From: Desulfosporosinus sp.
GTDB taxonomy: Bacteria; Bacillota; Desulfitobacteriia; Desulfitobacteriales; Desulfitobacteriaceae
Direction: 5' to 3'
DNA: 47,859 nucleotides
NCBI GenBank assembly: GCA_020692355.1
Contig: JAIMKP010000021.1
Span: 1-47,859, forward strand
Shown: positions 2,860 through 24,868 of the stretch, one piece after another
Layout: each line of letters starts with the position of its first letter
Position numbering within the stretch: the first letter of the stretch is position 1
The notes under the pieces: model-generated
The model's database searches: none
What the model saw: the letters and a program-made list of their open reading frames with translations, nothing else
Told to the model about the DNA's origin: nothing
Made by a program: the position numbers and the translations under genes

Positions 2860-5800
2860 ATGAAGGTCTTCGAGTTATATCAGAACTTGATTAAGGATTA
2901 TTCCGATTATATTCGGAGTTTCATCCAAATCAAAGACAGTCGCATCAGTGAATATGTGGAACAGGCTTTGGACAATGGCCATCTCTGGCCAGAGCCACTG
3001 ATTCAATTAAATCCTTCCTTTGAACCGGGCGGGACCATTGAAGAACTGGTGAGCCAGGGGATCCTGCACCCGGAATGTTCCCGGGTCTTTCGGTTGGATA
3101 AGGGGTCTCAGGCGGGTAGAATAACCATGTTTGCTGCATAAACATCAAACCGAAGCTATTGAGACGGCCTACAAAAAAGAGAACTATGTTCTCACGACTG
3201 GGACGGGCTCTGGGAAGAGTTTGGCCTACATCATTCCGATTGTCGATCATATCATTCGCCGGGGAAGTGGCAAAGGCATTCAGGCTATTATCATCTATCC
3301 GATGAATGCTTTGGTCAATAGCCAATATGGTGAGCTGGAGAAATTTTTATGCTTGGGATATCCTGAAGGACAACAACCGGTTACCTTTGAAAAATATACG
3401 GGTCAGGAAAGCGATGAAAGGAAACAGCAGATTATTGCCCATCCACCCGACATTCTTATCACGAACTATGTGATGATGGAGATGATTCTCACCCGGGTTA
3501 AGGATCGCCCCTTAATTGAGGCTGCGAAAAATATGCGTTTTCTGGTGTTGGATGAACTGCACACCTACCGGGGGCGGCAAGGTGCTGATGTGGCGATGCT
3601 GGTGCGTCGCGTGCGTGATCATTGTGGGGGAAACACGCTTCAGTGCGTCGGTACATCGGCTACTCTAGCCGGCGAGGGAACCTTTGATGAACAACAAGTG
3701 GAAGTGGCTAACGTTGCTTCTCTGCTCTTCGGGGCACCGGTCAAACCGGAATCTGTAATCGGTGAAACTCTGCGCAGGGCGACCCCAGCTAGGGATGCTG
3801 ACGAGCCGGAATTTCTGGCTGAAGTGACCACTAGATTAACAGATAATGGCTACAGGATCCCGGAGGATTACGAAGGTTTTATTCGCGATCCCCTGGCAAT
3901 TTGGATTGAAAGCACGTTTGGTTTGACCACTGAGGCAGCATCGGGCAGATTGCGCCGGAGCCAGCCTCGTTCTATCGCCGGCGAAAAAGGTGCCGCGCTG
4001 GAACTGAGTCGATTGACGGGTATCCCTGAGAATCAAGCCATTCAAGCTATTCAGGAATGTTTGTTAGCAGGTTATCGCTGCAAAAAAACAGGTTCTCCCT
4101 TCCCAGTGTTTGCATTTCGTCTCCACGCCTTTATCAGCCGGGGAGAAACTGTGTACACCTCGATCGAAACTGACAGTGAACGATATATCACTCTGGAGGG
4201 TCAGCAGTTCGTACCAAACGACCGAAACAGGGTGTTGTTACCCCTGGCTTTTTGCCGGGAATGTGGCCAAGAGTTCTATGTCGTCAAAGCATTTAGCGAT
4301 AAGAAGTCCGGTGAAAAGGTTTACGCAAGAAGAGAACTTAACGAAGTTTACAGTGATGAGGATAAGGAGTTCGAGTCGGGGTTTCTCTATCGCAACGTAG
4401 AGAACCCTTGGCCAACGGACGAACGGATGATCGTTGATAGTTTACCAGATGACTGGATTGAGAATTTCAAGGGAAGCGATCGCGTCCGCCGTAATCGTCA
4501 GGGGGATTTACCTCAACCCATCCGGGTGAATTCCCTAGGACAGAGTGTCTTAGATAAAGATTCGGGTCTGGAGTTCTTTTACATCAGAACCCCGTTTCAT
4601 TTCTGCCCTCATTGCGGAGTTGCTTATGGGGCCAGGCAGACTTCCGATTTTAGTAAATTGACAACACTTGGCTCCGAAGGGCGCAGTACGGCCACGACGA
4701 TTCTCAGTATGGCTTCTGTGCGTCATTTACGCAGGGAAGGTTCCTTGCCCGTAAAAGCGCAGAAACTTCTGAGCTTCACGGATAATCGCCAGGATGCATC
4801 ATTACAAGCCGGACATTTTAACGATTTTGTAGAAATCGGCCTTTTGCGCTCTGCCTTATATCAGGCTGTCACAAGCGCAGGGGCAGAAGGTCTGTCCCAC
4901 GACCGCCTTACCTTGGAGACCTTTCGGGCGATGGACCTGCCGCTGGAGCTCTACGCCAGCAGTCCGGAAGCACGATTCCAGGCTTTGAAGGATACCCAGC
5001 AGTCTTTGCGCAATGTTCTAGGCTATAGGCTATACTATGATCTGAGGCGGGGCTGGCGCATCACTTCGCCGAATCTGGAGCAATGCGGACTTCTGGAGAT
5101 CAAATATGATTCTTTAGAAGATATGGCCGGAAGTAACGATGATGATATTTGGCCTTTTTACAAACGAGGGGATATTCTTGTGGAAGGTCACCCTGCTTTG
5201 GTTACCGCTTCAGCCCAGACAAGGCTTAGGGTGGCCAAGGTCTTGCTCGACTATATGCGACGCGAACTGGCGATTAAGGTTGATTATCTCGATCGGGAGT
5301 TTCAGGAACGGATCCAGCAGCAGAGCAGCATGAAGCTCATCAGCCCTTGGGCTATTGATGACGGTGAGCGCATGGTTCATGCGGCAATTCTCTATCCCCG
5401 TTCGCGTAGCAGCAAAGATTTTCAGGGTCATGTCTATTTATCGGACCGCAGTGGGTTTGCCCAATACTTACGTCGGAGGGGTACTTTCCCAGAATACGGC
5501 CAAAGGCTTACTTTATCTGAGACGACGATTATCATTGAGCAATTGCTCAATGCTTTAGTTATCGCTGGGCTACTTGAGATTGTCGATCCAGGCAAAGAGG
5601 GTGAGGTTCCCGGCTACCAACTCAACGCCGCTGCGATGACCTGGTGTGTGGGAGACGGCACGCGAGCTTTTCACGATCCGATCCGGGTGCCAAATGTACC
5701 GGAAGGCGGGGGAAGGACCAATCCCTTTTTCCTGGAGTATTACCGTTCACTCGCCAAGGATTTTTGTGGAGTGATCGCGCGGGAGCATACCGCTCAGGTG

Positions 5801-6931
5801 CCAAACAGCCTACGCTTGGAACGAGAAAAAGACTTCCGCGAAGGGCGTTTGCCAGTGCTGTATTGTTCGCCGACCATGGAACTCGGCGTCGACATAGCGC
5901 AGCTCAATCTCGTGAACATGCGGAATATCCCGCCCACCCCGGCTAACTATGCCCAACGGAGTGGTCGGGCCGGACGAAGCGGTCAACCTGCCCTGGTGTT
6001 CTCGTATTGCTCAGCAGGAAGTCCACACGATCAGTACTTTTTTAAGCATCCTGAACTTATGGTGGCTGGAGCTGTAAAACCACCACGTCTGGATCTGAGT
6101 AATGATGAGTTGATTAAATCCCATATTCAGGCGGTGTGGCTGGAAGAGTCAAAGCTAGACTTGGGCAAGTCCCTGAAGGACGTCTTGGATGTCGATGGAG
6201 ATGTACCCAGCTTGGAATTGTTGCCCTCCGTTAAAGACCATTTTCAGGATCAAAATGCCCGACATAGAGCTTTAACCCGTTCCCTGGCCTTGGTTAAGGA
6301 GCTTAATGCTGAAATGGATGGAATTCTAAATTTCGATGAGGAGCGTATCCGGGAAACCATCAATCAGATTCCTCTGGCTTTCCAGAATGCCTGTGAGCGC
6401 TGGCGGGGACTCTACCGCGCCGCTCTTAAACAGTGCACTGTGCAAAACCGAATCATTACTGATGCTTCCCGTCCCTCCGGCGATAAAGACCAGGCTAAAC
6501 TCCTGCGCCGTGAGGCTGAATCTCAGCTTGACCTCTTGACGGAATCGGATAATATTAGCCAATCCGATTTCTACAGTTATCGTTATTTCGCCAGTGAGGG
6601 CTTCTTACCAGGATATAGTTTTCCCAGGTTGCCCATATCAGCTTATATTCCGGCCAGGCGCAGGGGAGCCGAACGGGATGAATTTCTTAACCGGCCTCGC
6701 TTCTTAGCAATTTCCGAATATGGTCCGCAGAGTATCATCTATCATGAGGGCGCAAGGTATGTGATCAATAGGGTCATCTTGCCGGTGGGTGACCGTAATG
6801 AAGAGATTCTCACCCGTTCGGCCAAGGTCTGTCCGGCCTGCGGCTATCTCTACCCCTTAAGTGACGCCAGTGGCCCGGATCTTTGCGAACGCTGTGGAGC
6901 CTACCAATATCGGCCAAATAGTATTGCGTAG
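2860..6931 (+). pseudogene. Large DEAD/DEAH helicase with Zn knuckles, frameshifted near 3120-3131 and 3'-truncated
   Basis: Two frames together encode about 1350 aa of a Ski2/MrfA-like helicase. Residues 1-93 run from ATG 2860 (ribosome site GGGGAGGG) and end at a stop just past 3131. The helicase core then continues in the next frame: TGTGSGKS (motif I), DELH (II), GTSATL (III) and QRSGRAGRSG (VI). Removing one base from ATAACCATG at 3121 would rejoin the frames. Cysteine pairs (CRECG, CPHCG, and CPACG with CERCG) suggest Zn binding. The first about 80 residues resemble the start of the helicase at 18011 (shared KD..., PG-T-LV-G spacing), so the two are distant paralogues. The last codons lie in a 47-bp segment also found at 25657, and the expected DUF1998 C-terminus is missing. 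A sequencing error could explain the frameshift but not the truncation. Confidence 0.75.
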
Positions 6932-6949
6932 CCGCTTTGTTGGAGTGTT
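6903..6949 (+). repeat. 47-bp duplicated gene-end segment, copy 1
   Basis: These 47 bases match 25657-25703 exactly as read. Here they supply the last residues and stop of the helicase in one frame. In another frame both copies encode TNIGQIVLRSRFVGVL, and only the 25657 copy goes on to an acidic C-terminus (YPDYDEWDE). The segment probably belongs to a third gene whose tail has been joined to unrelated genes. Confidence 0.85.
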
Positions 6950-7508
6950 GAGCAGGTGGGTTGTATTTTGTTATCAACACTATGCCAGAGGGCCGTTACC
7001 CGACGACTTTGACATCAAAAATATGGCGCTCGTGCAGGCCAAAACCTCGCGCCAACTTTTGGACACGATTCTCATCCCTGCCGTGGAAGAAGCCATTTTC
7101 AATGGGGAAGAAGACGCCAAGCGCCTGGCGCAAGCCTTTCAGAAGGTAAATAAAAGCCTCATCCGCCTGCCGGAGTCGGAAAAGGACCTGCAGGATTTTC
7201 AGCTCCTGCGCACGGAGGGGGAGCGGGTTGAAATCATCGCCCAATACGAAGAAAAAGCCGCTTTTGAGCTGAAGGAAGCGGATAGAAATAAACAGGAACT
7301 CGTCGAGTGCTCCATCAAGCAGGTGGAGCGGGTTGCCTAGGAAATGCAGATGATCGACCGCTATGTCAAAGCGGATTATGCCGGGCGGCGGGTGAATGCG
7401 GTCCAGATCAAGCTGAAAGAGATCGAAGCAGACAAAGCAGTCGCCAGAAAACAGGAGGGCTGGCTAAGCAGAAGAGAAATCCCAGGGCAAGAAGTTAGGA
7501 AGGATTGA
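6950..7508 (+). pseudogene. Relic of an unrecognised, helix-rich protein
   Basis: An open frame continues from the 47-bp segment into about 130 codons rich in Glu, Lys, Leu and Ala (for example LIPAVEEAIFNGEEDAK), stops at a TAG at 7338-7340, and continues in the same frame for another 55 codons (EMQMIDRYVKADYAGRR...). The regular heptad-like spacing suggests a helical or coiled-coil segment. Base composition is visibly more GC-rich than the neighbouring genes and resembles the Wadjet remnant at 37-41 kb. With no start, an in-frame stop and chimeric ends it is best read as a fragment. I do not recognise the family. Confidence 0.5.
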
Positions 7509-13187: not shown

Positions 13188-13702
13188 TGGACAATAACTA
13201 TCTGTCTTAGGCCGAGACAATTTAAGAGTTTCGAACAAGCGGAACTAAAAATAGGCGCAATGACAGTTCTCATGGGAACGAACGCATCAGGAAAAAGTAA
13301 TATCCGGGATGCCATCCGGTTCTTCGACGGAGTCTTCAGAGGCTACACACTGGCAGAGATCTTGGGTGAAAAGTGGTTCGAAGGGGGTATTCTTCAGTGG
13401 CGGGGAATTCGTGGTGGAACCCGCAAGGTGGCATATAAACATAAGAAAAACTTTATACTTGGTTTGGACTTCAGTATGAACGGAGGAACAGTAATTTCTT
13501 ATGACATTGAGGCCATAAAAACGCACAAGGAGACCCTTGATAACCTGAAGCAAATGAAGTTTCTCGATTTGAGCCCGGATGCGATGCGGCAACCTTCCAT
13601 ACCCGGACAGACTGAGCTCAGCGATATGAAAGAATTTGTAGATTATGCCCGGAAGACATTTGGGAATTAGAAAATAGGATCAGACAGGTCCTGGAAAGAT
13701 AA
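13188..13702 (+). pseudogene. Decayed AAA ATPase (OLD/RecF-like), N-terminal part
   Basis: This resembles the N-terminus of an ABC-type AAA ATPase of the OLD/RecF kind: RQFKSFEQAELKIGAMTVLMG leads into Walker A GTNASGKSN. The signature and Walker B regions are absent. The ATG at 13188 reads MDNNYLS then stops, and the ATPase frame is off by one. Near 13660 the frame breaks again: the preferred continuation (ELENRIRQVLER) lies in another frame and stops at 13700. It therefore carries two frameshifts and a large truncation. Proteins of this family are common in defence islands, often with a partner nuclease. It directly precedes the second helicase module and was probably an older neighbour. 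Confidence 0.6.
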
Positions 13703-14201: not shown

Positions 14202-14246
14202 GCGGGGCAAGACGTTCAATTGCTTAATAGATGGAGGAATCAGCCG

Positions 14247-17200
14247 GTGGAGACTACACTAACTGGTACACCAAGAATAACGATAAGAGGGAATTGGGAC
14301 ATTGGTGCTATAGAAATCCACATCAAGGACTACCTGAGTCAATGTGAGATGTGGGGAGATCTGAATATAAGCTGGGAAGAGTATGACCACATTAAGTCAA
14401 GAATTGCAGGAGCATTGGGCAGCAACCCAACCGCTAAACAAGCGATAACCCTTATTAGAAGGTATCCGATAGTAATGGTGACTGACATTATTAGTTTTGT
14501 ACTCTATGAATATGATAACTGTGAATTTTGGAGCGGGTGGGCAAGCCGTTACAACATAGATATTGGAACCAATAACCAAACTGAAATAGGCAGAATGGTA
14601 CGGGATATATTTGAAAAGTATAATTTTAAGGTTATTGAGGACGGGGGATATGTCTATGTTACACCGATTCTCTGCCAAGCTGGCATTCCCAGTGTTTGCT
14701 TCGATAAATTGTTTGATATTTTAGATTGCACCCTAAACTCATCCTATTTCATGGCACGTGAACTCGTCAATGAATTAATGGGCTATCGCAACTATCTGAT
14801 TGACGTTCCAGTAGAGCGGTATTTTAAACTACATACAGAAAGGGCCATTGAACTCATCGTACAGCTTCGAGAAATGATACATACGGTTAGCGAGGTTTCT
14901 ATAGCGTGTGCCGATGTTCCTGACGTGCCTGGAGTGCAGCTGCGGATCGTGAAGAGGTATGCAATATGGAGTGCGGAAATTAAAAAATTGGGAACGAAAA
15001 GCAGAAAGACTACTCAGTACTACTTTTCACCCAAACTTGTTTACGATGAGACAAAAGGCGTTTGCCTATTTATTCCAGAACAAACCTTAAGGCAAGATTC
15101 AATCTACAAATTAAAGTGGACTATTATCAGTAATGGTAATGTAGAAAGTGAGAAAACTGTTTATTCACAAGTTTATAATGACAAGCGCAGGAATTACACC
15201 CGTGAAGCAAACGTTCCGATAGATTTTGCGAACACCTATACAATTCAACTTACGGATAATGATGACGATTCAGTCCTATTGACAAGTCCTTGGATAATCA
15301 ATGGATTGGGTAAAGAAAACGATATTCTGACTTTTAACGAAAGCGGCTCACTCTTGCCAAAAACACAGAGATACATTTCACGAAAAGGATCTGTCGTGGT
15401 CTTTGATAGCAGTAGGGCAACAATTATAGAAATTCACAGTATCAATAAGATTGACATAGATTTGCCCAAAAGTTGGGCTGGGTTTCAGGCGTTTTGTGCC
15501 TATCCTGCCGAAAAGGATGCTCGTCTAACGATACAGACGTCAAGTGAAGTGGTCAATATTGAAGCTAAGCATTCCTTTGACATTGAGCTAGTTCAAATCG
15601 GCACTTTATTCGACGAGAAATATAATGGCAATGAAACACCGGTTTATACTCGCTTCCCTACTGTTGAGATAATTGGTAATATCGATAATTATTATCAAGC
15701 GTTATTTAATAATTGGCAAGTGGTGATAATTCACAGATTATCAAATACAAAGCATACGGCGATGCTTACCGAACTCGGTCTAAAGGTGTACGACGACCAT
15801 GTGCAGTTTAGTTTAAGTGATTATGCACAAGAATATTACGTAGGCCTGTATGGTGCGTACGATTTGAGGGTTTATGATGGCAAAACCCGAAAGTATTTCA
15901 CCTTTTACCTTTCTCCTAAAATTGAGTATATCGCTCATATTGAAGATATACAGTCGGATCGATATTTTGAAAATAGCCGGGCAGTTTTTTATGTGCAAAA
16001 GAATGAGGCTATAACACTGGAGTTTGAAAATAGAAGTGGGATCAATGTTTTACCGGCAGCTAACAGGGGCGCAGATTGGCAAGAAATATCAACAACGAAT
16101 AGACCAGCCTATATCAGCGGCCAGGTTATTTTTAAAGACAGTGATGGCCTTCAAAAAATCCCTTTTAGAAAAACCATCCGAAAATTAGAGTGGAGCTTTT
16201 GGGATGAACGAGAAAATGACGTAATGGAAATTGGTAAGTCAAAGCAGTTTAATATAGAGGATTTCAAAAAAACAACGTGGCGTTTAGCTTTACGTTTTAC
16301 GGATGCAGCCGAACGGTATGATGCGGTTAAATTAGTGCTTGAAGCAGCAAATTCGGAACAACTGCAAAGTAAAAATATTGTGCTGGATGGGTTCGGTAGC
16401 AGTTCCGTAACGTTAAATTTGTTTCAAGATACAATGGCTGCGTACTTGTTACCTCAAAGGCTGATGCTATATATCACAAAAGGGTATGACGACTATTTGC
16501 CCATTTGCATTGCTGTCGTTAAAAGTTTTGTGCAGTTGAAAAACCCGAAATATACCATTAGTCATGATAGGCCTACTGTATATTGGGATCCAGGACGTGA
16601 AAATGAGTTGTTAAATAAACGGTTGGAGTTTACCTCCCTGAGTGATCTTGATATGGAACCCCTAAAATATTCTCTAAATGAGAAGGTACGAAGGTTCAAA
16701 GATAAGGCCGGTAAAACCTTTGAGGGCCTCGTACTGGACCAACCGTTAAGAGATGGCATTTACTATGTTGATGCGAGGGAAGACCTGGAGTTCTCGTTTT
16801 TCGAGGATGAGGAGCAAGCAATACCCGTCTATGATAGGGAGCATATAATATGTGTCAATGGGAAGCACGTCATAGAGAAACTATTGAACAGTAAAAGCAA
16901 TCAAGTGATTGATTGGTTATCTGGTACAGCCATTGCACTTCATAAATCAGAATGGCTTATCGTCTTATTAAAGAAGCTTAGAGATCAAGTTGAACAAGGT
17001 GAAATGATATTTAACCCCAAGGGATGCGCTCCTTTGCTTTTTTCATTGCTCATCAATTCTGGAGAGAAGTCAAATTTGGCAATAGACATCAAATTAAACG
17101 TCAAAGCAGTTTGTGAACTAATTAGTGATTTTTTGATTACAAATACCGACCGCCTTGAAATTCTAAACCATCTATTAGAGAGCAGCATACCAGATAGTGA

Positions 17201-18008
17201 TTGTCAAATTATAATCAGTGAATTGCAACTTTATCTGTTTTGTCCCAATAACTCAGTCTTACTTGAGAAATCATCTATTCAAAAAATGTGGGACCTAAAT
17301 CAGTATATGGCGATTCTTATGAACGTGAGAAACTGTGTCAGTAATAGTTCCGTTGATATAGACCGTGTCTTGAGTAAAATTGGCTATGAATCCTTGAAAG
17401 AGATTATAAAAATCTCTCCAAAAGCAGATTGTGACAATCAGGACTGGACTGATTGTCTAGAACGAAGTTTAAGTGGTCAATGCCAATGTAATTATGTTAA
17501 GTTTGAGTGTTCCAAGAGAGTCTGGGGTGACGGATTGGAATATTCAACGTTGTTTGTTGCTGATCGAAGAGGTAATTGGAGCAGGCAAACCCCTAACGAA
17601 AGCCATACTGATGGATATGAGATATTTGGAAAAACCTACCTAACCCTGATATTTGAAATCACACCTGAAAACCAGGATGCGGCCACGAAGAAATATGTTG
17701 AATACGCCAATAAGGAAATGTATAAGTCAGAGAATCTTACCTTAAAATATGCGCCGCTCTTCCCTGATTTTCATAAAGTGTTGAAGCATCGGTTAGCGGA
17801 TAGCGCTGGCAGTCAAAGACTGTTTTACCACATTGGCTGTTCAAGCGCCTTGGCGGCCTTATCAACGCGAAAAGCCATTGCTTCAGCCGACTTACAGGAG
17901 CTGTTACCCTTTTGGAAAAATGCCATGGGTGCTTATCCTGAGCTGGTCTACAGAGATTTTATTCTAGCTGAATTATATATACTTTTTACAAATGGAAGAA
18001 GGAATTAG
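14247..18008 (+). CDS. Large protein of unknown function, DruH-like candidate
   Basis: A 1253-aa protein with no motif I can name. The start chosen is GTG 14247, with GGAGG nine bases upstream; a TTG at 14220 lacks a site. The first 200 residues are helical, with a striking YEYDNCEFWSGWA segment near residue 90. Residues about 230-800 look like consecutive beta-rich domains (many short strands, GFQAFCAYPAEKD and similar). The C-terminal 300 residues are helical again. The gene ends two bases before the DUF1998 helicase, so the two are almost certainly co-expressed. A large unknown protein followed by a DUF1998 helicase is the layout of Druantia type III (DruH-DruE, Doron et al. 2018). That identity is inferred from size and order only. 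Confidence 0.6.
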   Translation: METTLTGTPRITIRGNWDIGAIEIHIKDYLSQCEMWGDLNISWEEYDHIKSRIAGALGSNPTAKQAITLIRRYPIVMVTDIISFVLYEYDNCEFWSGWASRYNIDIGTNNQTEIGRMVRDIFEKYNFKVIEDGGYVYVTPILCQAGIPSVCFDKLFDILDCTLNSSYFMARELVNELMGYRNYLIDVPVERYFKLHTERAIELIVQLREMIHTVSEVSIACADVPDVPGVQLRIVKRYAIWSAEIKKLGTKSRKTTQYYFSPKLVYDETKGVCLFIPEQTLRQDSIYKLKWTIISNGNVESEKTVYSQVYNDKRRNYTREANVPIDFANTYTIQLTDNDDDSVLLTSPWIINGLGKENDILTFNESGSLLPKTQRYISRKGSVVVFDSSRATIIEIHSINKIDIDLPKSWAGFQAFCAYPAEKDARLTIQTSSEVVNIEAKHSFDIELVQIGTLFDEKYNGNETPVYTRFPTVEIIGNIDNYYQALFNNWQVVIIHRLSNTKHTAMLTELGLKVYDDHVQFSLSDYAQEYYVGLYGAYDLRVYDGKTRKYFTFYLSPKIEYIAHIEDIQSDRYFENSRAVFYVQKNEAITLEFENRSGINVLPAANRGADWQEISTTNRPAYISGQVIFKDSDGLQKIPFRKTIRKLEWSFWDERENDVMEIGKSKQFNIEDFKKTTWRLALRFTDAAERYDAVKLVLEAANSEQLQSKNIVLDGFGSSSVTLNLFQDTMAAYLLPQRLMLYITKGYDDYLPICIAVVKSFVQLKNPKYTISHDRPTVYWDPGRENELLNKRLEFTSLSDLDMEPLKYSLNEKVRRFKDKAGKTFEGLVLDQPLRDGIYYVDAREDLEFSFFEDEEQAIPVYDREHIICVNGKHVIEKLLNSKSNQVIDWLSGTAIALHKSEWLIVLLKKLRDQVEQGEMIFNPKGCAPLLFSLLINSGEKSNLAIDIKLNVKAVCELISDFLITNTDRLEILNHLLESSIPDSDCQIIISELQLYLFCPNNSVLLEKSSIQKMWDLNQYMAILMNVRNCVSNSSVDIDRVLSKIGYESLKEIIKISPKADCDNQDWTDCLERSLSGQCQCNYVKFECSKRVWGDGLEYSTLFVADRRGNWSRQTPNESHTDGYEIFGKTYLTLIFEITPENQDAATKKYVEYANKEMYKSENLTLKYAPLFPDFHKVLKHRLADSAGSQRLFYHIGCSSALAALSTRKAIASADLQELLPFWKNAMGAYPELVYRDFILAELYILFTNGRRN

Positions 18009-18010
18009 CA

Positions 18011-21000
18011 GTGCCTATGAATCCTATTGAAACGACAGAAACCATTAAAGACGATTATTTAGCCTACTTGCAATCAATCTTAAAAGTGAAAGACGATACC
18101 CTGACAAAGCAAGCCTATCTCGCCTTGAAAGAAAATGAATTCGTTAAAGGCCCCTTTTTGGAAGCCACTCCACCGTTCGTTCCAGGAACAACACTCGCAA
18201 GACTGGTTGAGGAGGGCGTGGCGAGCAAAGGCTTTCAGGCTATCGCGGCAGCCGTCGAAATTGACCGCCCACTGTATGTTCACCAAGAAACAGCGTTTCG
18301 AAAATTAACGACGGGTAGAAAAAACGTCATTGTTGCTACGGGTACCGGGAGCGGAAAAACCGAGTGTTTTATGTATCCTATTTTTAACGAACTCATGCTT
18401 CAAAACGAGGCAAATGACCTGACTTCAGGTATCAGAGCCTTGCTTTTGTATCCCATGAATGCGTTAGCGAACGACCAAATGAAACGCTTAAGAGGATTGT
18501 TAGCTAACTATCCAAGCATCACCTTTGGTCGATATACGGGTGAAACGCTAGAAAATCAAGATAAAGCAATTGAGGCTTATCGTGAAAAGAAAGAAATGGA
18601 ATACAAAGCAAAGAAAAAACGCAAGGGAGTTGATTATACAGACTTCGACTTAAACCCTTTGCCGAATGAACTCATTTCGCGTCAGAGGATGAGAGAAACC
18701 CCACCGCATATTTTGCTCACCAATTATGCTATGCTTGAATATCTCTTGATTAGACCAGAGGATACGTCATTTTTTGATGGTGATCTGGCAAGAGCCTGGC
18801 GTTTCTTAGTCTTAGATGAAGCACATACTTATAAAGGTGCGAATGGAACCGAAATTGCCTTATTGTTAAGACGGCTCAAAGAACGAGTTTGTCAAAACGA
18901 GAAGAACAAGCTGCAATGTATTGCGACCAGCGCCACGCTCGGAAACAGAGATGCCTTACCGGATCTCGCCGCCTTCGCTTCGAATATATTCGATGAGACG
19001 TTTAACGTTGAAGATATTATCACCTCTGAACGCAGAAAGTGTAAAATCGAAGAGGGTATGAAAAAGTATTCATTGGAGGAATATCATGATTTTAAAACAC
19101 ACGTTCAAGCGATGAAGGATGAAGTTAAGGTCGGAGCATGGCTCTATGAGAGACTTGTCAAAGACGAACGAATCGTTACAATCTTAAATTTGTTAGAAGC
19201 CAAGCCGAAAGATCTAACCGAGGTTGCCAAGCGGGTTTTCGTAGATTATGCAGAGCTGTCAACAAGAGAGCAGGGGCTTATACTATTAATCGAACTTGGG
19301 GTAATGGCGAAGCCCGATGCAGACTCTGCCGCTCTTTTACCGGCCCGCTACCATCTTTTTGTTCGAGCCTTAGAGGGCGTTTATGTTGCTCTATATCCAG
19401 GAAAACAAGTCTTTTTAGATCGAAAAGAGCTGTTTGAGGTCGATGACTTGAAAGTACGGGTGTTTGAGCTTGCCAACTGTCAGAACTGTGGGCAAGAATA
19501 CTTGGTCGGCAAAGAGAAAAGTGGATACCTTAAACCCGCTATCGACGGAGAAAAGTTAGAGTATTATATGCTGTCACATGATATCGTTGAAACGGATGAG
19601 GTGGATACTAACGGCGATGATGAAGCCTTTGAAACGGCGGACGTTAAAAAAGTAGAGGCCTATGAATTGTGTACAGTATGTGGCAAACTGACCCTGTCAG
19701 GCGCCAAGAAACGAGAAGAATGTTGTAACACGAAAAGCAGTCGTAAAATCATCAATGTCTATAAGATGAAGACAAAACCAAATGCCAGAGACGTGAATAC
19801 CTGTGCCGCCTGTGGTGGAGTTTCTATGTCAATTATTAAGCGTTTTATGACGGCCAATCAACCCTCCACCTATATTGTAGCAAACAGTCTCTATTCCATG
19901 ATACCCCCACAAAAAATCACAGTTGATGCGCAGATTCCTGAAGATAGCTTTTTTGAGGTTGAAGAGGAGCTTAAAAACCTCGAGTATTATGATGAGTCGG
20001 GCAGAAAGCTACTCGTGTTCTCGGATAACCGACAGGAAGCAGCGTTTTTTGCTGCCTATATGGACAACAAGTATAACCAGTTGATGTGGCGAAGACTTAT
20101 CCTGAGGGAATTAAAAAATAAGTCAGAGGGGTTACTGCTCGAGGATTTGATGAGAAGTCTCGTGAAAAAGGCGAAAGAAGCCGTGTTGTATCCAGACAAT
20201 CTTTCCAATCAGGAAAAGGAAATAGTCGCTGCCACTTATCTAATGAAAGAATTCATGGGCCTTGAGCGTAAACAAGGCTTGGAAGGCAGCGGATACCTTA
20301 AATTCAGTCCGGAGAAAATGTCCCTCAAAAGTGGAAAATGGGATTTGTCAGCGGATGAGGTGTGGGAAGTATGCTGTGTTATGATGGATACCTTGCGCTA
20401 TGCCGGTGCGACAACGTATCCGGAAAATATCGATCCGGAAAACGAAAGCTTTGCACCACGCAACCGCAATGTCTATTTGAGGAAAATAGAAAGTGGAACT
20501 TATGAAAAAGGGACGATTTCCAGCTTTCTACCCGTTGGCTCAGCCAATAACCGGAGATATGATTATCTTCGTAAACTCCTTGAAACTATGGGTAGTGATA
20601 GTGAACAGGCAAAAGTTAAAGGCATGGAAATCCTCAACAGTATTTATGAAAGTATTATTCTTCCGTTAAGTGAGAAAAATTATTTAGAGCGAGTCTTGTT
20701 GGGAAGCGAAGGGGAAGTTACGAGACTTAACTACAAAAAATGGGTTGTGCGCTATTGTGAAGAGGAGGACACCGTGTATCGGTGTCAGCGCTGCGGAAAA
20801 ATCGCGTCTCATAATGTCAAAGATGTCTGTCCAGAGTTCCGTTGCAGGGGTAAACTAGAAACAATCTTAGCCAAAGAATTTCGAAACGACCCATATTACT
20901 TCCAAGCCTATAGCAATGAAAAGATCATCCCTATGGTTGCCAAAGAGCATACAGGACAGCTCAACAAAGACACGGCGGGTACTACGCAGACAAGATTTGA

Positions 21001-22867
21001 AGCGGGTGAAATTAACGTGCTCAGCTGTACGACGACCTTTGAAATGGGGGTCGATGTTGGGCAACTTGAAGCTATACTCCTGCGAAATGTACCGCCGGAA
21101 ACCTCAAATTATGTCCAAAGAGCCGGCCGGGCCGGTCGTAGAACATCGGCAACTGCCTTCTCGGTAACTTATGCGAGGCGTAATAGTCATGACCTTAACT
21201 ATTTTGAAAACCCCACCGAAATTATTAGTGGCAAAATAAAGTCACCCTATATTGAATTGAACAACGATAAGATCGCAGGAAGACATGTTAACTCCATCGT
21301 GTTAGCCTGGTTTTTTCGTAGAAATGAAGAGTGCAAGACCTATTTTAAAGGGGGAGTTCGTTCTCTGGTGGGAAGGGATGGTCGAGCGACGATTTTAGAG
21401 GTGCTTCAGAAAGAATTGGACAAACGACCAGAAGATCTAATTCAATCGATAGAGAGGGTTCTGACACCGCAATTAATGAGCAGACTGGAAATCAAGAAGT
21501 GGGCCTTTGTTGATAAGTTAATCGGAGTTGACGGCACGCTCACCAATTCGATTGAGGAAATGCAAAGGGATCTTGAAACACTTGGTGAAAACCTCAAAAA
21601 ACGGATGTCTAAAATGCAAAAAAGCGATGATTTGCTGCGCTTAATCAATACCTTTGAAAAACAACAAACCATTAACTTCCTTGCTTCGAGTGGTGTCATA
21701 CCAAAATACGGTTTCCCCGTCGATGTCGTTAAACTCAAAATATTAAGTAATGCTTCGGAAGCCAAAGATGTTGATTTGTCACGTGACTTGAAAATGGCAA
21801 TTTCCGAATATGCTCCTGGCAGTGAAATCATTGCTGCTGGTAAAGTGTGGACAAGCCATTCCATCATCAAAATTAGGGATAAAGAATGGCCAACTTACCA
21901 ATATTTTGAGTGTCCGGATTGTAGACGAACTTCGTTCCCCGATGGGATTACCACGATCGAAGAAAAGAACGATGAGAACCTTCAATTGTGCATTTGTGGT
22001 ACACCCATGAAAGCACATAAAGTAATTATACCGATCTTTGGCTTTTCGACATCCTGGATTGAAAAAGCAAAACGAGTGGGGGAGAGCAGGCCTAAACGTT
22101 TCTACCCTACAAGAGTGCAGTTCGGTGGTTTTGATGCGTTAGACTCGTATCAAGAAGCAGAAAAACAAGAAGCAGAACTTCAAATTGCCGATAAGAGCAT
22201 CCATTCTAAATATTCACCCCAAGGAAAACTGGTGATCATGAATAAGGGAACCACGGGAGCAGGGTTGTTCATTTGCAAATATTGTGGCTACGCACAATCA
22301 ACGCCGCAGGAGTTTAAGCATAAGAACAAAATGGGAAAAGACTGCCCGAATAAATACGCCACGAATGCCGCCTTGGGTCATATCTTCACGAGCGATATCT
22401 TGTGGCTTGAATTCCCTACGAGACATGTAAGCCTCATTGAGGGTAAGGACCAATGGACAACATTATTGTATGCCATCCTTGAAGGAGCCTCAGATGCCTT
22501 AGGAATATCAAGGGATGATATAAACGGATGCATCGATAGGTCTGGAAATCATCCCGTCGTGATACTATTTGATGAGGCACCCGGAGGAGCGGGACACGTT
22601 AAACGCATATATTCACAATTTGATGCGGTGTTGAAGGCTGCCTATCATCGTGTCGATGGCCACTGCAAGTGTGGTGAGGAGACAGCCTGCTATGGCTGTT
22701 TAAGAGGGTATTCCAACCAGCTAGACCACGATGTTTTGGCTCGTGGAATGGCCAAGGAATATTTAGAATGGTTGTTATTGGAGAAGCCTGATTCGAGGAT
22801 TAGATATCTTGATAAGTTAATAATAGACAAAAACATAGCTGAAAATGTTATGGCGGAGGAAGTATGA
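18011..22867 (+). CDS. DEAD/DEAH helicase with Zn knuckles and C-terminal DUF1998-type domain, DruE-like
   Basis: A 1618-aa helicase. Starts at GTG 18011 or ATG 18017 share an AAGGA site. Motifs: GTGSGKTE (I, residue 111), DEAHTYKG (II, 269), SATLGN (III, 306), a second RecA half with EAGEINVLSCTTT and RAGRAGRR (VI, 1037). Between and after the RecA halves are many Cys pairs (CQNCG, CTVCG, CAACG, CQRCG, CPDC, CKYCG), probably Zn knuckles. The C-terminus has FDEAPGGAGHVKRI and then CKCGEETACYGCLRGYSN, the MrfA/DUF1998 ending with four Cys. MrfA-type enzymes are 3'-5' DNA translocases, and DruE of Druantia belongs to this group. It is intact, unlike the helicase at 2860, and directly follows its large partner. 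It probably drives DNA sensing or remodelling in a defence complex. Confidence 0.85.
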   Translation: MPMNPIETTETIKDDYLAYLQSILKVKDDTLTKQAYLALKENEFVKGPFLEATPPFVPGTTLARLVEEGVASKGFQAIAAAVEIDRPLYVHQETAFRKLTTGRKNVIVATGTGSGKTECFMYPIFNELMLQNEANDLTSGIRALLLYPMNALANDQMKRLRGLLANYPSITFGRYTGETLENQDKAIEAYREKKEMEYKAKKKRKGVDYTDFDLNPLPNELISRQRMRETPPHILLTNYAMLEYLLIRPEDTSFFDGDLARAWRFLVLDEAHTYKGANGTEIALLLRRLKERVCQNEKNKLQCIATSATLGNRDALPDLAAFASNIFDETFNVEDIITSERRKCKIEEGMKKYSLEEYHDFKTHVQAMKDEVKVGAWLYERLVKDERIVTILNLLEAKPKDLTEVAKRVFVDYAELSTREQGLILLIELGVMAKPDADSAALLPARYHLFVRALEGVYVALYPGKQVFLDRKELFEVDDLKVRVFELANCQNCGQEYLVGKEKSGYLKPAIDGEKLEYYMLSHDIVETDEVDTNGDDEAFETADVKKVEAYELCTVCGKLTLSGAKKREECCNTKSSRKIINVYKMKTKPNARDVNTCAACGGVSMSIIKRFMTANQPSTYIVANSLYSMIPPQKITVDAQIPEDSFFEVEEELKNLEYYDESGRKLLVFSDNRQEAAFFAAYMDNKYNQLMWRRLILRELKNKSEGLLLEDLMRSLVKKAKEAVLYPDNLSNQEKEIVAATYLMKEFMGLERKQGLEGSGYLKFSPEKMSLKSGKWDLSADEVWEVCCVMMDTLRYAGATTYPENIDPENESFAPRNRNVYLRKIESGTYEKGTISSFLPVGSANNRRYDYLRKLLETMGSDSEQAKVKGMEILNSIYESIILPLSEKNYLERVLLGSEGEVTRLNYKKWVVRYCEEEDTVYRCQRCGKIASHNVKDVCPEFRCRGKLETILAKEFRNDPYYFQAYSNEKIIPMVAKEHTGQLNKDTAGTTQTRFEAGEINVLSCTTTFEMGVDVGQLEAILLRNVPPETSNYVQRAGRAGRRTSATAFSVTYARRNSHDLNYFENPTEIISGKIKSPYIELNNDKIAGRHVNSIVLAWFFRRNEECKTYFKGGVRSLVGRDGRATILEVLQKELDKRPEDLIQSIERVLTPQLMSRLEIKKWAFVDKLIGVDGTLTNSIEEMQRDLETLGENLKKRMSKMQKSDDLLRLINTFEKQQTINFLASSGVIPKYGFPVDVVKLKILSNASEAKDVDLSRDLKMAISEYAPGSEIIAAGKVWTSHSIIKIRDKEWPTYQYFECPDCRRTSFPDGITTIEEKNDENLQLCICGTPMKAHKVIIPIFGFSTSWIEKAKRVGESRPKRFYPTRVQFGGFDALDSYQEAEKQEAELQIADKSIHSKYSPQGKLVIMNKGTTGAGLFICKYCGYAQSTPQEFKHKNKMGKDCPNKYATNAALGHIFTSDILWLEFPTRHVSLIEGKDQWTTLLYAILEGASDALGISRDDINGCIDRSGNHPVVILFDEAPGGAGHVKRIYSQFDAVLKAAYHRVDGHCKCGEETACYGCLRGYSNQLDHDVLARGMAKEYLEWLLLEKPDSRIRYLDKLIIDKNIAENVMAEEV

Positions 22868-22944
22868 GAATTATTTCTTGGAACTGTGCGATGGCTTTTA
22901 GGGCCTTCCGGCGTGCCCATTGCCGTCCTGTGCTTTCAAAATAG
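22864..22944 (+). pseudogene. 5' stub of an endonuclease/exonuclease/phosphatase (EEP) gene
   Basis: ATG 22864 overlaps the helicase stop (ATGA). The first 12 codons (MRIISWNCAMAFR) match the N-terminus of EEP-family nucleases, where the Asn of the WN pair is a metal ligand. The sequence then loses family resemblance and stops at 22944. The coupled start suggests the third gene of the helicase operon was an EEP nuclease that has been deleted. Confidence 0.6.
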
Positions 22945-22978
22945 CTGAGGTAAACGGTTGCCCATGCCCAGCTTTTAT

Positions 22979-23001
22979 TATCACAAAAAACGTGATATAA
23001 T
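22979..23001 (+). promoter_or_regulatory. Operator-like inverted repeat over a -10 box
   Basis: TATCAC and GTGATA form a perfect 6-7-6 inverted repeat at 22979-22997, and TATAAT (22996-23001) overlaps its right arm. No good -35 is present. This could be a repressor site controlling the AAA ATPase gene. Confidence 0.5.
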
Positions 23002-23039
23002 ATTACCGATGATGTGATGTGAAAGAAGGCGATTTATCC

Positions 23040-24152
23040 ATGTCAAATACCTTATTTCCCTTGGGTGGTCCCGTAGCAGAGGATGACATCGTCGATCGTG
23101 AGGACTTCTTGAAATCAATACAGACCAGGTTGGCTGATGGGCAAAGCATCATGCTGACGGGGCCACGCAGGATCGGTAAAACATCACTGGCCTTAGAAAC
23201 ATTAAGACAACTCAAAAAACAAGGTTTTTATGTTGCTTCGGTTGATTTCTTTAGGGTTTCCACTAAACAAGAACTGGCCACCGCTATTATTGATGCTTGC
23301 CTAGAAAATAGGACCGGAATTCATAGAACTATGGATGCGCTAAAAGAAGGAATTAAATCCGTTACGAGTGCTACTAAGCTGGCTATGAAGTTAAAAGGCT
23401 TGGAGTTTTCACTAAATCTGCCTGACAAGAATACATCCGATGATATTCTGTTATCTTATGCCTTGGATTTACCGGAAAAGTTGGCTGTTGTCGACAAAAA
23501 ACAAACCATTGTTGTCTTTGATGAATTTCAAGATGCTGCCCGTATTGTCGGCGACGATGTTTTTAAACTTATGCGTTCTCATTTCCAGCTGCATACCAAG
23601 GCTAATTATCTCTTTCTGGGTTCCAAAGAAGGGATTATGAACACTATCTTTGCTGGGCCGGATCAAGCATTTTACCGTTTTGCAACCATATTGCCTTTGC
23701 CACCCATTTCTCCATTGGCGTGGACAACATACATTAAAAGGAAATTCGGAGATCAGGGAATCAAGTGTAAGGACCAAGTCATACACGAAATCATTAAAAT
23801 AAGTGGCGGACATCCACAGGATACCATGCTTATCTGTTCAGAAACGTACTATCTGTTGCTGGAAACAGGCGAAAAAACCTTGACCCTTGATTCGGTACAG
23901 TTAGGAACAAACCGGGCCTTAGCCTCGCTTACCCCAGTTTTCGATGGTATATTGGACGAGTTAGGAGCGGCTAAAAGAATCCTAACCCGCTTAATCCAAA
24001 AGCAATCTATCTATGAAAAAGGAACACATCCGACTGAAATTAAACGAAAGGTCGATATGCTCATTAATAAGGGTATCATTGAAAAGACTGACCATGGAAC
24101 CTATGTGTTTGTAGAGCCCATGTTGAAAGAATACTTACAAAGAGAATATTGA
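23040..24152 (+). CDS. AAA ATPase, archaeal ATPase (ATPase_2/STAND-like) family
   Basis: A 370-aa protein. ATG 23040 (AAGAAGG about ten bases upstream) is preferred over GTG 23019. It opens FPLGGPVAEDDIVDRE, the usual lead-in of PF01637 proteins, then Walker A GPRRIGKTS (about 41), Walker B IVVFDEFQD (about 158) and the sensor segment LGSKEG (about 198). A helical lid follows (ISGGHPQDT) and a C-terminal winged-helix region. The family includes ORC/Cdc6-like and STAND-type switches, often orphan genes in mobile regions. No partner gene is adjacent. Role unknown; a regulatory or defence sensor is plausible. Confidence 0.85.
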   Translation: MSNTLFPLGGPVAEDDIVDREDFLKSIQTRLADGQSIMLTGPRRIGKTSLALETLRQLKKQGFYVASVDFFRVSTKQELATAIIDACLENRTGIHRTMDALKEGIKSVTSATKLAMKLKGLEFSLNLPDKNTSDDILLSYALDLPEKLAVVDKKQTIVVFDEFQDAARIVGDDVFKLMRSHFQLHTKANYLFLGSKEGIMNTIFAGPDQAFYRFATILPLPPISPLAWTTYIKRKFGDQGIKCKDQVIHEIIKISGGHPQDTMLICSETYYLLLETGEKTLTLDSVQLGTNRALASLTPVFDGILDELGAAKRILTRLIQKQSIYEKGTHPTEIKRKVDMLINKGIIEKTDHGTYVFVEPMLKEYLQREY

Positions 24153-24304: not shown

Positions 24305-24680
24305 TTGAAATTGCATATTGACCTTGACGTGTTGATTATGTTATATGATACAGCTGCCAGAGCTCAGGAAATTGTTGACCTAACTCTGCGTGACCTGCAC
24401 CTTGTCAATGTTAAGTCGCCCTTTGTCACCCTGACAGGTAAAGGCAACAAAAGCCGAAATGTCCCGTTGATGGAGAAAACAGTTGCACACATAAACAATT
24501 ATCTTCGGGAGTTTCATCCGCATCCAAGTACAGATGGTAAAGATCCGTTGTTCTTTTCTAGAAGAGACGGGAAACCTCATGCCTTATCTACTGATACGGT
24601 AAATCTACTTCTTGGCTATTATGCAAACCAGTCAAGGTCTGTTTGCCCCCAAATTCCGCAGCATGTTCTAAAGAAAATGA
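24305..24680 (+). pseudogene. Tyrosine recombinase core fragment
   Basis: Part of a phage-integrase-type recombinase catalytic domain: YDTAARAQEIVDLTLRDL contains the first catalytic Arg, and LTGKGNKSRNVPLM contains the Lys of the beta hairpin. The N-terminal core-binding domain is absent, and the frame leaves the family at PQIPQHVLK, before the H-x-L-R-H box and the tyrosine. It cannot be active. The open frame runs on to 24844 through unrelated sequence, including a copied helicase tail. Confidence 0.75.
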
Positions 24681-24686
24681 GCTATA

Positions 24687-24760
24687 CCGATCAGCATTGT
24701 CTGGAAGATGAAGGAGCCATTGCCGGGGTTTGTGATGTAAAAGACGGTGAAGGTTTGATG
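24687..24760 (+). repeat. 74-bp copy of the DUF3427-helicase gene end
   Basis: Matches 36201-36274 with 5 differences in 74. In the helicase frame it encodes PISIVWKMKEPLPGFVM followed by TAA, i.e. the C-terminus of a second DUF3427 helicase of which nothing else remains here. Confidence 0.8.
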
Positions 24761-24868
24761 GTCACTAAGCAGGATCTTTTCGCTGACATGGTGAATAAAG
24801 AACCTGTAGACTCTGTCATGCAAGTAGAAGTCAAGAAAGCTTAGTTGTAGATAAGGGATGGATAATCG

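Follow-up and report, generated by a model that had tools for sequence, protein, structure and literature searches.

Behind a large helicase gene of Desulfosporosinus sp. (contig JAIMKP010000021.1), a short reading frame begins like a small EEP nuclease and ends after 26 codons. Is this the last trace of a three-gene defence system that has lost its nuclease, or does it lie behind a two-gene system that is complete by itself? To answer this, I analysed the window (the whole stretch of 47,859 nucleotides) and related loci.

Two large genes and an overlapping remnant

The features of the locus are as follows.

14233 to 14237, forward strand: GGAGG, ribosome-binding site of the DruH-like gene (from the sequence)
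14247 to 18008, forward strand: DruH-like partner gene, 1253 aa, GTG start (from the ORF, family membership, hhalign and an AlphaFold2 model)
18011 to 22867, forward strand: DruE-like (YprA family) helicase gene, 1618 aa, GTG start (MZB/DUF1998, without a C-terminal nuclease domain)
22855 to 22859, forward strand: GGAGG before the EEP start, within the helicase gene (from the sequence)
22864 to 22944, forward strand: remnant of an EEP-nuclease gene, 26 codons plus stop (the first 13 codons correspond to an EEP N-terminus)

The earlier note had described two intact large genes of 1253 and 1618 aa, two bases apart, and both frames were indeed found to be open with a gap of two bases. The ORF list offers an alternative start for the DruH-like gene at TTG 14220 (1262 aa); GTG 14247 was preferred because a ribosome-binding site lies at 14233-14237. 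The stop codon of the helicase gene (TGA, 22865-22867) overlaps with the start codon of the EEP stub (ATG, 22864-22866), forming an ATGA junction. The reading that I consider probable is that the window carries an anti-phage system of two intact genes, Druantia type III-like (III-B), for which the EEP gene was an accessory and not a defining part. This reading takes in what was observed in the window and its relatives, namely the open frames, the gene order, the homology, the fold class, the helicase motifs, the EEP remnant and the absence of EEP from the sampled relatives.

The helicase belongs with DruE proteins lacking a nuclease domain

The second protein had been called a DUF1998 helicase with DruE-like identity. 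Both parts of this description hold, as it has an MZB/DUF1998 domain and matches the PADLOC models DruE1 (2.4e-192) and DruE3 (7.7e-180); like that of a mycobacterial helicase, its best PADLOC score is with DruE1 and not DruE3. It carries Walker A, DEAH and motif VI, so that the motor motifs are intact, and its closest solved relative is 9tu7 (1.4e-76). No C-terminal nuclease domain, PLD-like ones included, was found on it by Pfam, and the protein ends 29 residues past the conserved region.

In a quick tree of 45 chosen rows, in which the III-B reference GIH50614.1 is absent and the outside rows are long-branched, the window helicase was grouped with those of loci L018-L022 and more widely with actinobacterial pairs, and the helicases of E. 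coli III-A, type I and ARMADA fell apart from it. Its neighbours in the tree come from Clostridium carboxidivorans, Ruminococcus flavefaciens, a Bacillota bacterium, Fictibacillus and Fervidibacillus (43-46% identical). The nearest sisters are L019 and L020, whose helicases have C-terminal extensions without a Pfam match. The helicases of two mycobacterial loci are approximately 34-35% identical to that of the window.

Two other assignments were tried and dropped. Membership in ARMADA was rejected since the ARMADA partner genes are absent; the neighbours are a truncated AAA_21 ATPase gene (upstream) and an ATPase_2 gene (downstream). Classification as III-A by PADLOC DruH3 plus DruE3 was also rejected, as the partner has no DruH-model match and the helicase has no PLD-like C-terminal nuclease.

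The partner is a distant member of the DruH family

Is the first protein a DruH, as the earlier note had guessed? It was recognised by no model of PADLOC, Pfam or NCBIfam. A search against the PADLOC DruH models gave 0 families at E <= 1, while E. coli DruH as a control matched 11 of them. The partners of mycobacterial loci were likewise negative with these models. Used alone as a query, the first protein retrieved no relatives from genome contigs, plasmids or phages, and in viral contigs it gave one confirmed relative and no distinct locus. A helicase profile search did retrieve relatives, the genome loci being the best 80 among the matches listed.

Among the matches listed, an upstream gene of at least 700 aa is present in 69 of the 81 loci with room for one. 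In a BLASTP comparison of 79 upstream proteins of the DruE relatives among the matches listed, single linkage at E < 1e-5 tied the window protein to 66 of them, with direct links to 23 at E <= 1e-3. A six-member profile (the window protein and five Bacillota relatives) matched ten actinobacterial partners over 1055 columns (hhalign E 5.1e-25), and the partners of the two mycobacterial loci are homologous to that of the window. A 35-member family profile then matched seven DruH sequences of the E. coli kind in register (hhalign E 1.5e-8). On repetition the value was 3.8e-7, with 0.67 for a reversed control and six column shuffles at 0.73-0.98. With only the N-terminal part, the E. coli DruH set was matched at 7.6e-4 against 0.31 for its control. 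When the six-member profile was used alone, no convincing alignment with the E. coli DruH sequences was obtained, and BLASTP of the first protein against the partners of a phage locus and of genome G035 gave no significant match. At the residues mutated in M. smegmatis DruH, a gapless check against the mycobacterial relatives gave a score not above shuffles.

A DruH-like and DruE pair (L013:7245-14668) lies between endolysin and exonuclease genes in Ruminococcus phage NatCom_28274. In G035, two short pieces on opposite strands (L011:1055-1363) are 66-71% identical to the DruH-like protein of the window; they lie approximately 6 kb before another DruH-DruE pair and were read as the scrambled remnant of a near relative.

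The profile comparison thus suggests that the first protein is remotely homologous to E. coli DruH. The HMM test that the earlier note had proposed was negative, and membership in a DruH-like family, supported by profiles, stood. Could the protein instead be an unrelated large sensor in a separate system that shares only the helicase? The failure of every DruH model would fit this, as would the variability of the partner, which is far greater than that of the helicase (19-22% identity among six partners vs 43-46% for the helicases). I nevertheless regard this as very improbable, given that the E. coli DruH set is matched collinearly and the controls are clean, that the actinobacterial partners are matched at near full length, and that the predicted order of regions (helical, beta, helical) is the same as in DruH. 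It follows that the PADLOC DruH models cover only one end of the DruH family.

The structure prediction that the earlier note had proposed gave helical ends around an Ig/Fn3-like core. The AlphaFold2 model of residues 1-1200 of the DruH-like protein (pLDDT 71, pTM 0.53) has a predicted helical N-terminal region (approximately 19-247), a predicted series of tandem Ig/Fn3-like beta domains (approximately 257-845) and a predicted helical C-terminal region. Searches with the beta core (Foldseek and VIA-align) returned only general Ig/Fn3-like matches, phage tail-tip proteins among them. No match stood out in either search; DruH 9tud was absent from the rows shown, which excludes nothing. According to the available part of PMC13192584, E. 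coli DruH is helical in its N-terminal and C-terminal regions, contains Ig-like domains and resembles baseplate J proteins. In outline, the model appears to match this published architecture.

The stub is the start of a small EEP gene

The frame from ATG 22864 reads MRIISWNCAMAFRAFRRAHCRPVLSK and stops at 22942-22944. The EEP-like part is MRIISWNCAMAFR, which is followed by 13 residues without likeness and then by the stop codon. An intact small EEP of a genome of the same family (L154), which matches Pfam Exo_endo_phos at 2.2e-9, begins with MKIISWNCNMAFRKK; 11 of 13 residues are the same in the stub and in this N-terminus. Is such a short likeness due to chance? The start motif was found only 6 times among the 4.48 million six-frame residues of the loci analysed, and these occurrences comprise four EEP genes, one chance case and this stub. 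Since the motif is so rare, the likeness is more than chance. In addition, when the stub was put by hand into the six-frame set of 96 DruE loci, an HMM of nine small EEPs ranked it first (E 9e-4) among all pieces. Thus, the claim that an EEP start overlaps the helicase stop was confirmed by the ATGA junction, the motif count and the HMM. At its short length the stub had no match in Pfam, and tblastn of the stub against plasmids reached E 5 only, with the N-terminus of an EEP gene as the top match. The catalytic residues of EEP nucleases are Glu, Asp/Asn and His; the 26-codon stub does not carry this set.

Where could the gene have come from? In a genome-wide Pfam search for EEP, no gene scored above the cut-off. 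The EEP subfamily is rare: of the 398 genomes in the phylum sample, 4 have it. Ten EEP neighbourhoods were examined, six by BLAST (one of them, L171, with a partial EEP gene) and four from gene or ORF lists. The ten EEP genes lie in prophage contigs, on plasmids or near unrelated genes, and none of them was seen beside DruE; a helicase that may or may not be DruE-like lies approximately 4.5 kb from the EEP of L167. Two intact small EEPs of the stub's subfamily (L172:3818-4498 and L173:8001-8678) occur alone as cargo of viral contigs, in one case behind tail-type genes. The junction (22880-23060) was sought in 74 related genomes including its own; it was found only at home, with no donor or empty site. 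Most likely, the EEP gene was added in this lineage specifically and was truncated afterwards.

The third place behind the helicase

Do the relatives carry an EEP gene in the same place? The gene-order count covers 90 related loci, and in 75 of them the sequence continues for at least 800 bases past the helicase stop. The EEP search covered 96 loci, as it also took in L105 and L107 (viral), L012 and L143-L145. In L030 and L078 the helicase is broken into two frames, and one part of each was used. By tblastn with nine EEPs and by HMM, an EEP gene in third place was found in 0 of these 75 relatives (among the matches listed). Weak EEP-like matches were seen at a distance in L065 (approximately 6 kb from DruE, other strand, tblastn E 3.7e-4) and in L021 (approximately 7 kb from DruE, E 0.026). 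The earlier note had proposed that a DruH-DruE-EEP operon of three genes would be a new variant and had named in advance the absence of EEP from relatives as the result that speaks against it. This is the result obtained in this sample, and the proposal is not supported as it stood.

A rival reading is a true three-gene system in which the EEP supplied the nuclease absent from the helicase, so that the copy in the window would be without its effector and perhaps no longer functional. The ATGA overlap with its good ribosome-binding site couples the helicase to the EEP start, the helicase has no nuclease domain, and in 8 of the 75 relatives (among the matches listed) a different gene occupies the third place, all of which speaks for this reading. 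Inactivated EEP domains are also common on ARMADA II helicases, according to the available part of PMC12458937. The 0 of 75 count and the company that EEP relatives keep weigh against it, as does the finding, in the accessible part of PMC13316683, that a related pair, M. smegmatis DruH-DruE, protects against phages without a canonical nuclease domain. I therefore hold this reading to be unlikely, and the intact pair with an accessory EEP is preferred.

The gene found in the 8 relatives has a characteristic MIP-containing start at most 30 bases from the helicase stop. Pfam was run on four of the eight and revealed SF1-helicase-type domains in all four and NERD in three. The NERD plus SF1-type helicase genes directly behind DruE are as follows.

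L019, 15267 to 17144: NERD plus SF1-type helicase gene
L020, 5887 to 7731: NERD plus SF1-type helicase gene
L081, 10455 to 12302: NERD plus SF1-type helicase gene

A NERD-helicase gene in third place of sister systems is a more interesting lead than the three-gene variant. As a tentative and rather doubtful extension, the third slot of Druantia III-like systems might be modular and provide the nuclease absent from the helicase: a NERD-SF1 helicase in L019, L020 and some others, an EEP here and mostly nothing, the slot being gained and lost with the sensor-motor pair kept. Whether the third-place gene of the relatives is an added effector can be tested on such systems.

Surroundings of the pair

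The flanks contain several decayed genes. A truncated AAA_21/PDC-M07A-like ATPase (13260-13670, 136 aa) is a decayed defence gene that shortly precedes the DruH-like gene. On the other side, the EEP remnant is followed by an ATPase_2/AAA_14 gene (23019-24152), which does not seem to belong to the operon; a TATAAT-like site was seen by eye in front of it. Next comes a truncated phage-type integrase (24305-24844, Pfam 3.7e-8), a sign of the past mobility of the island. Farther upstream, a second, degraded DruE/YprA-like helicase (2860-6931, PADLOC DruE3 1.4e-90) is broken near its N-terminus into pieces that lie in different frames, and MZB was not matched. It is preceded by an HNH_2 gene (1744-2763) and followed by a JetC-like fragment (6861-7340). 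A single ORF at 8352-9470 matches Nitroreductase and, at its end, DnaA_N, and is possibly a fusion.

A possible mechanism

Every functional step proposed for the pair is drawn from homology. According to the available parts of the two reports, M. smegmatis DruH-DruE blocks circularisation and replication of phage DNA, with DruE neutralising the toxicity of DruH (PMC13316683), and in E. coli the sensor is probably DruH, which has a dimer-dependent nuclease, and the effector is DruE, a helicase-nuclease on ssDNA-containing intermediates (PMC13192584). By analogy, the DruH-like protein of the window may be an infection sensor that would bind a structural protein of the phage through its tandem Ig/Fn3-like domains and would license its partner. 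The DruE-like helicase would act as the motor, loading on phage DNA that is single-stranded or branched and blocking its circularisation or replication. Cutting, if there is any, would fall to the DruH-like protein or to a nuclease of the host, as the helicase itself lacks a nuclease domain. At the end of the operon, a small EEP gene may have been a late arrival via the coupled ATGA junction, later cut down to 13 recognisable codons.

Comparison with known systems

The E. coli type III system (III-A; DruH WP_001513100.1 plus DruE) resembles the window in gene order, in remote homology of the partner and in a homologous helicase (9tu7). In contrast to it, the window partner is unseen by DruH models, and the window helicase has 1618 aa instead of 2114 aa, without the C-terminal nuclease part.

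The III-B or III-like YprA branch, in the available part of PMC12458937, shares with the window a DruE-like helicase and a large upstream partner, mostly without a nuclease domain; the nuclease is most often absent from III-like helicases there, and an EEP gene in third place is not described for the III-B branch in that part.

The M. smegmatis type III system (DruH MSMEG_1253 and DruE MSMEG_1254), in the accessible part of PMC13316683, is like the window in its large partner, its adjacent DUF1998 helicase of similar size and the absence of a canonical nuclease domain. The likeness was drawn via the two other mycobacterial loci, with their homologous partner and related helicase. The window pair differs in having an EEP remnant behind it. 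Thus, a pair missed by the PADLOC DruH models is placed in a branch with experimental support, and it is a direct test case of whether a DruH-DruE pair without a nuclease domain defends alone.
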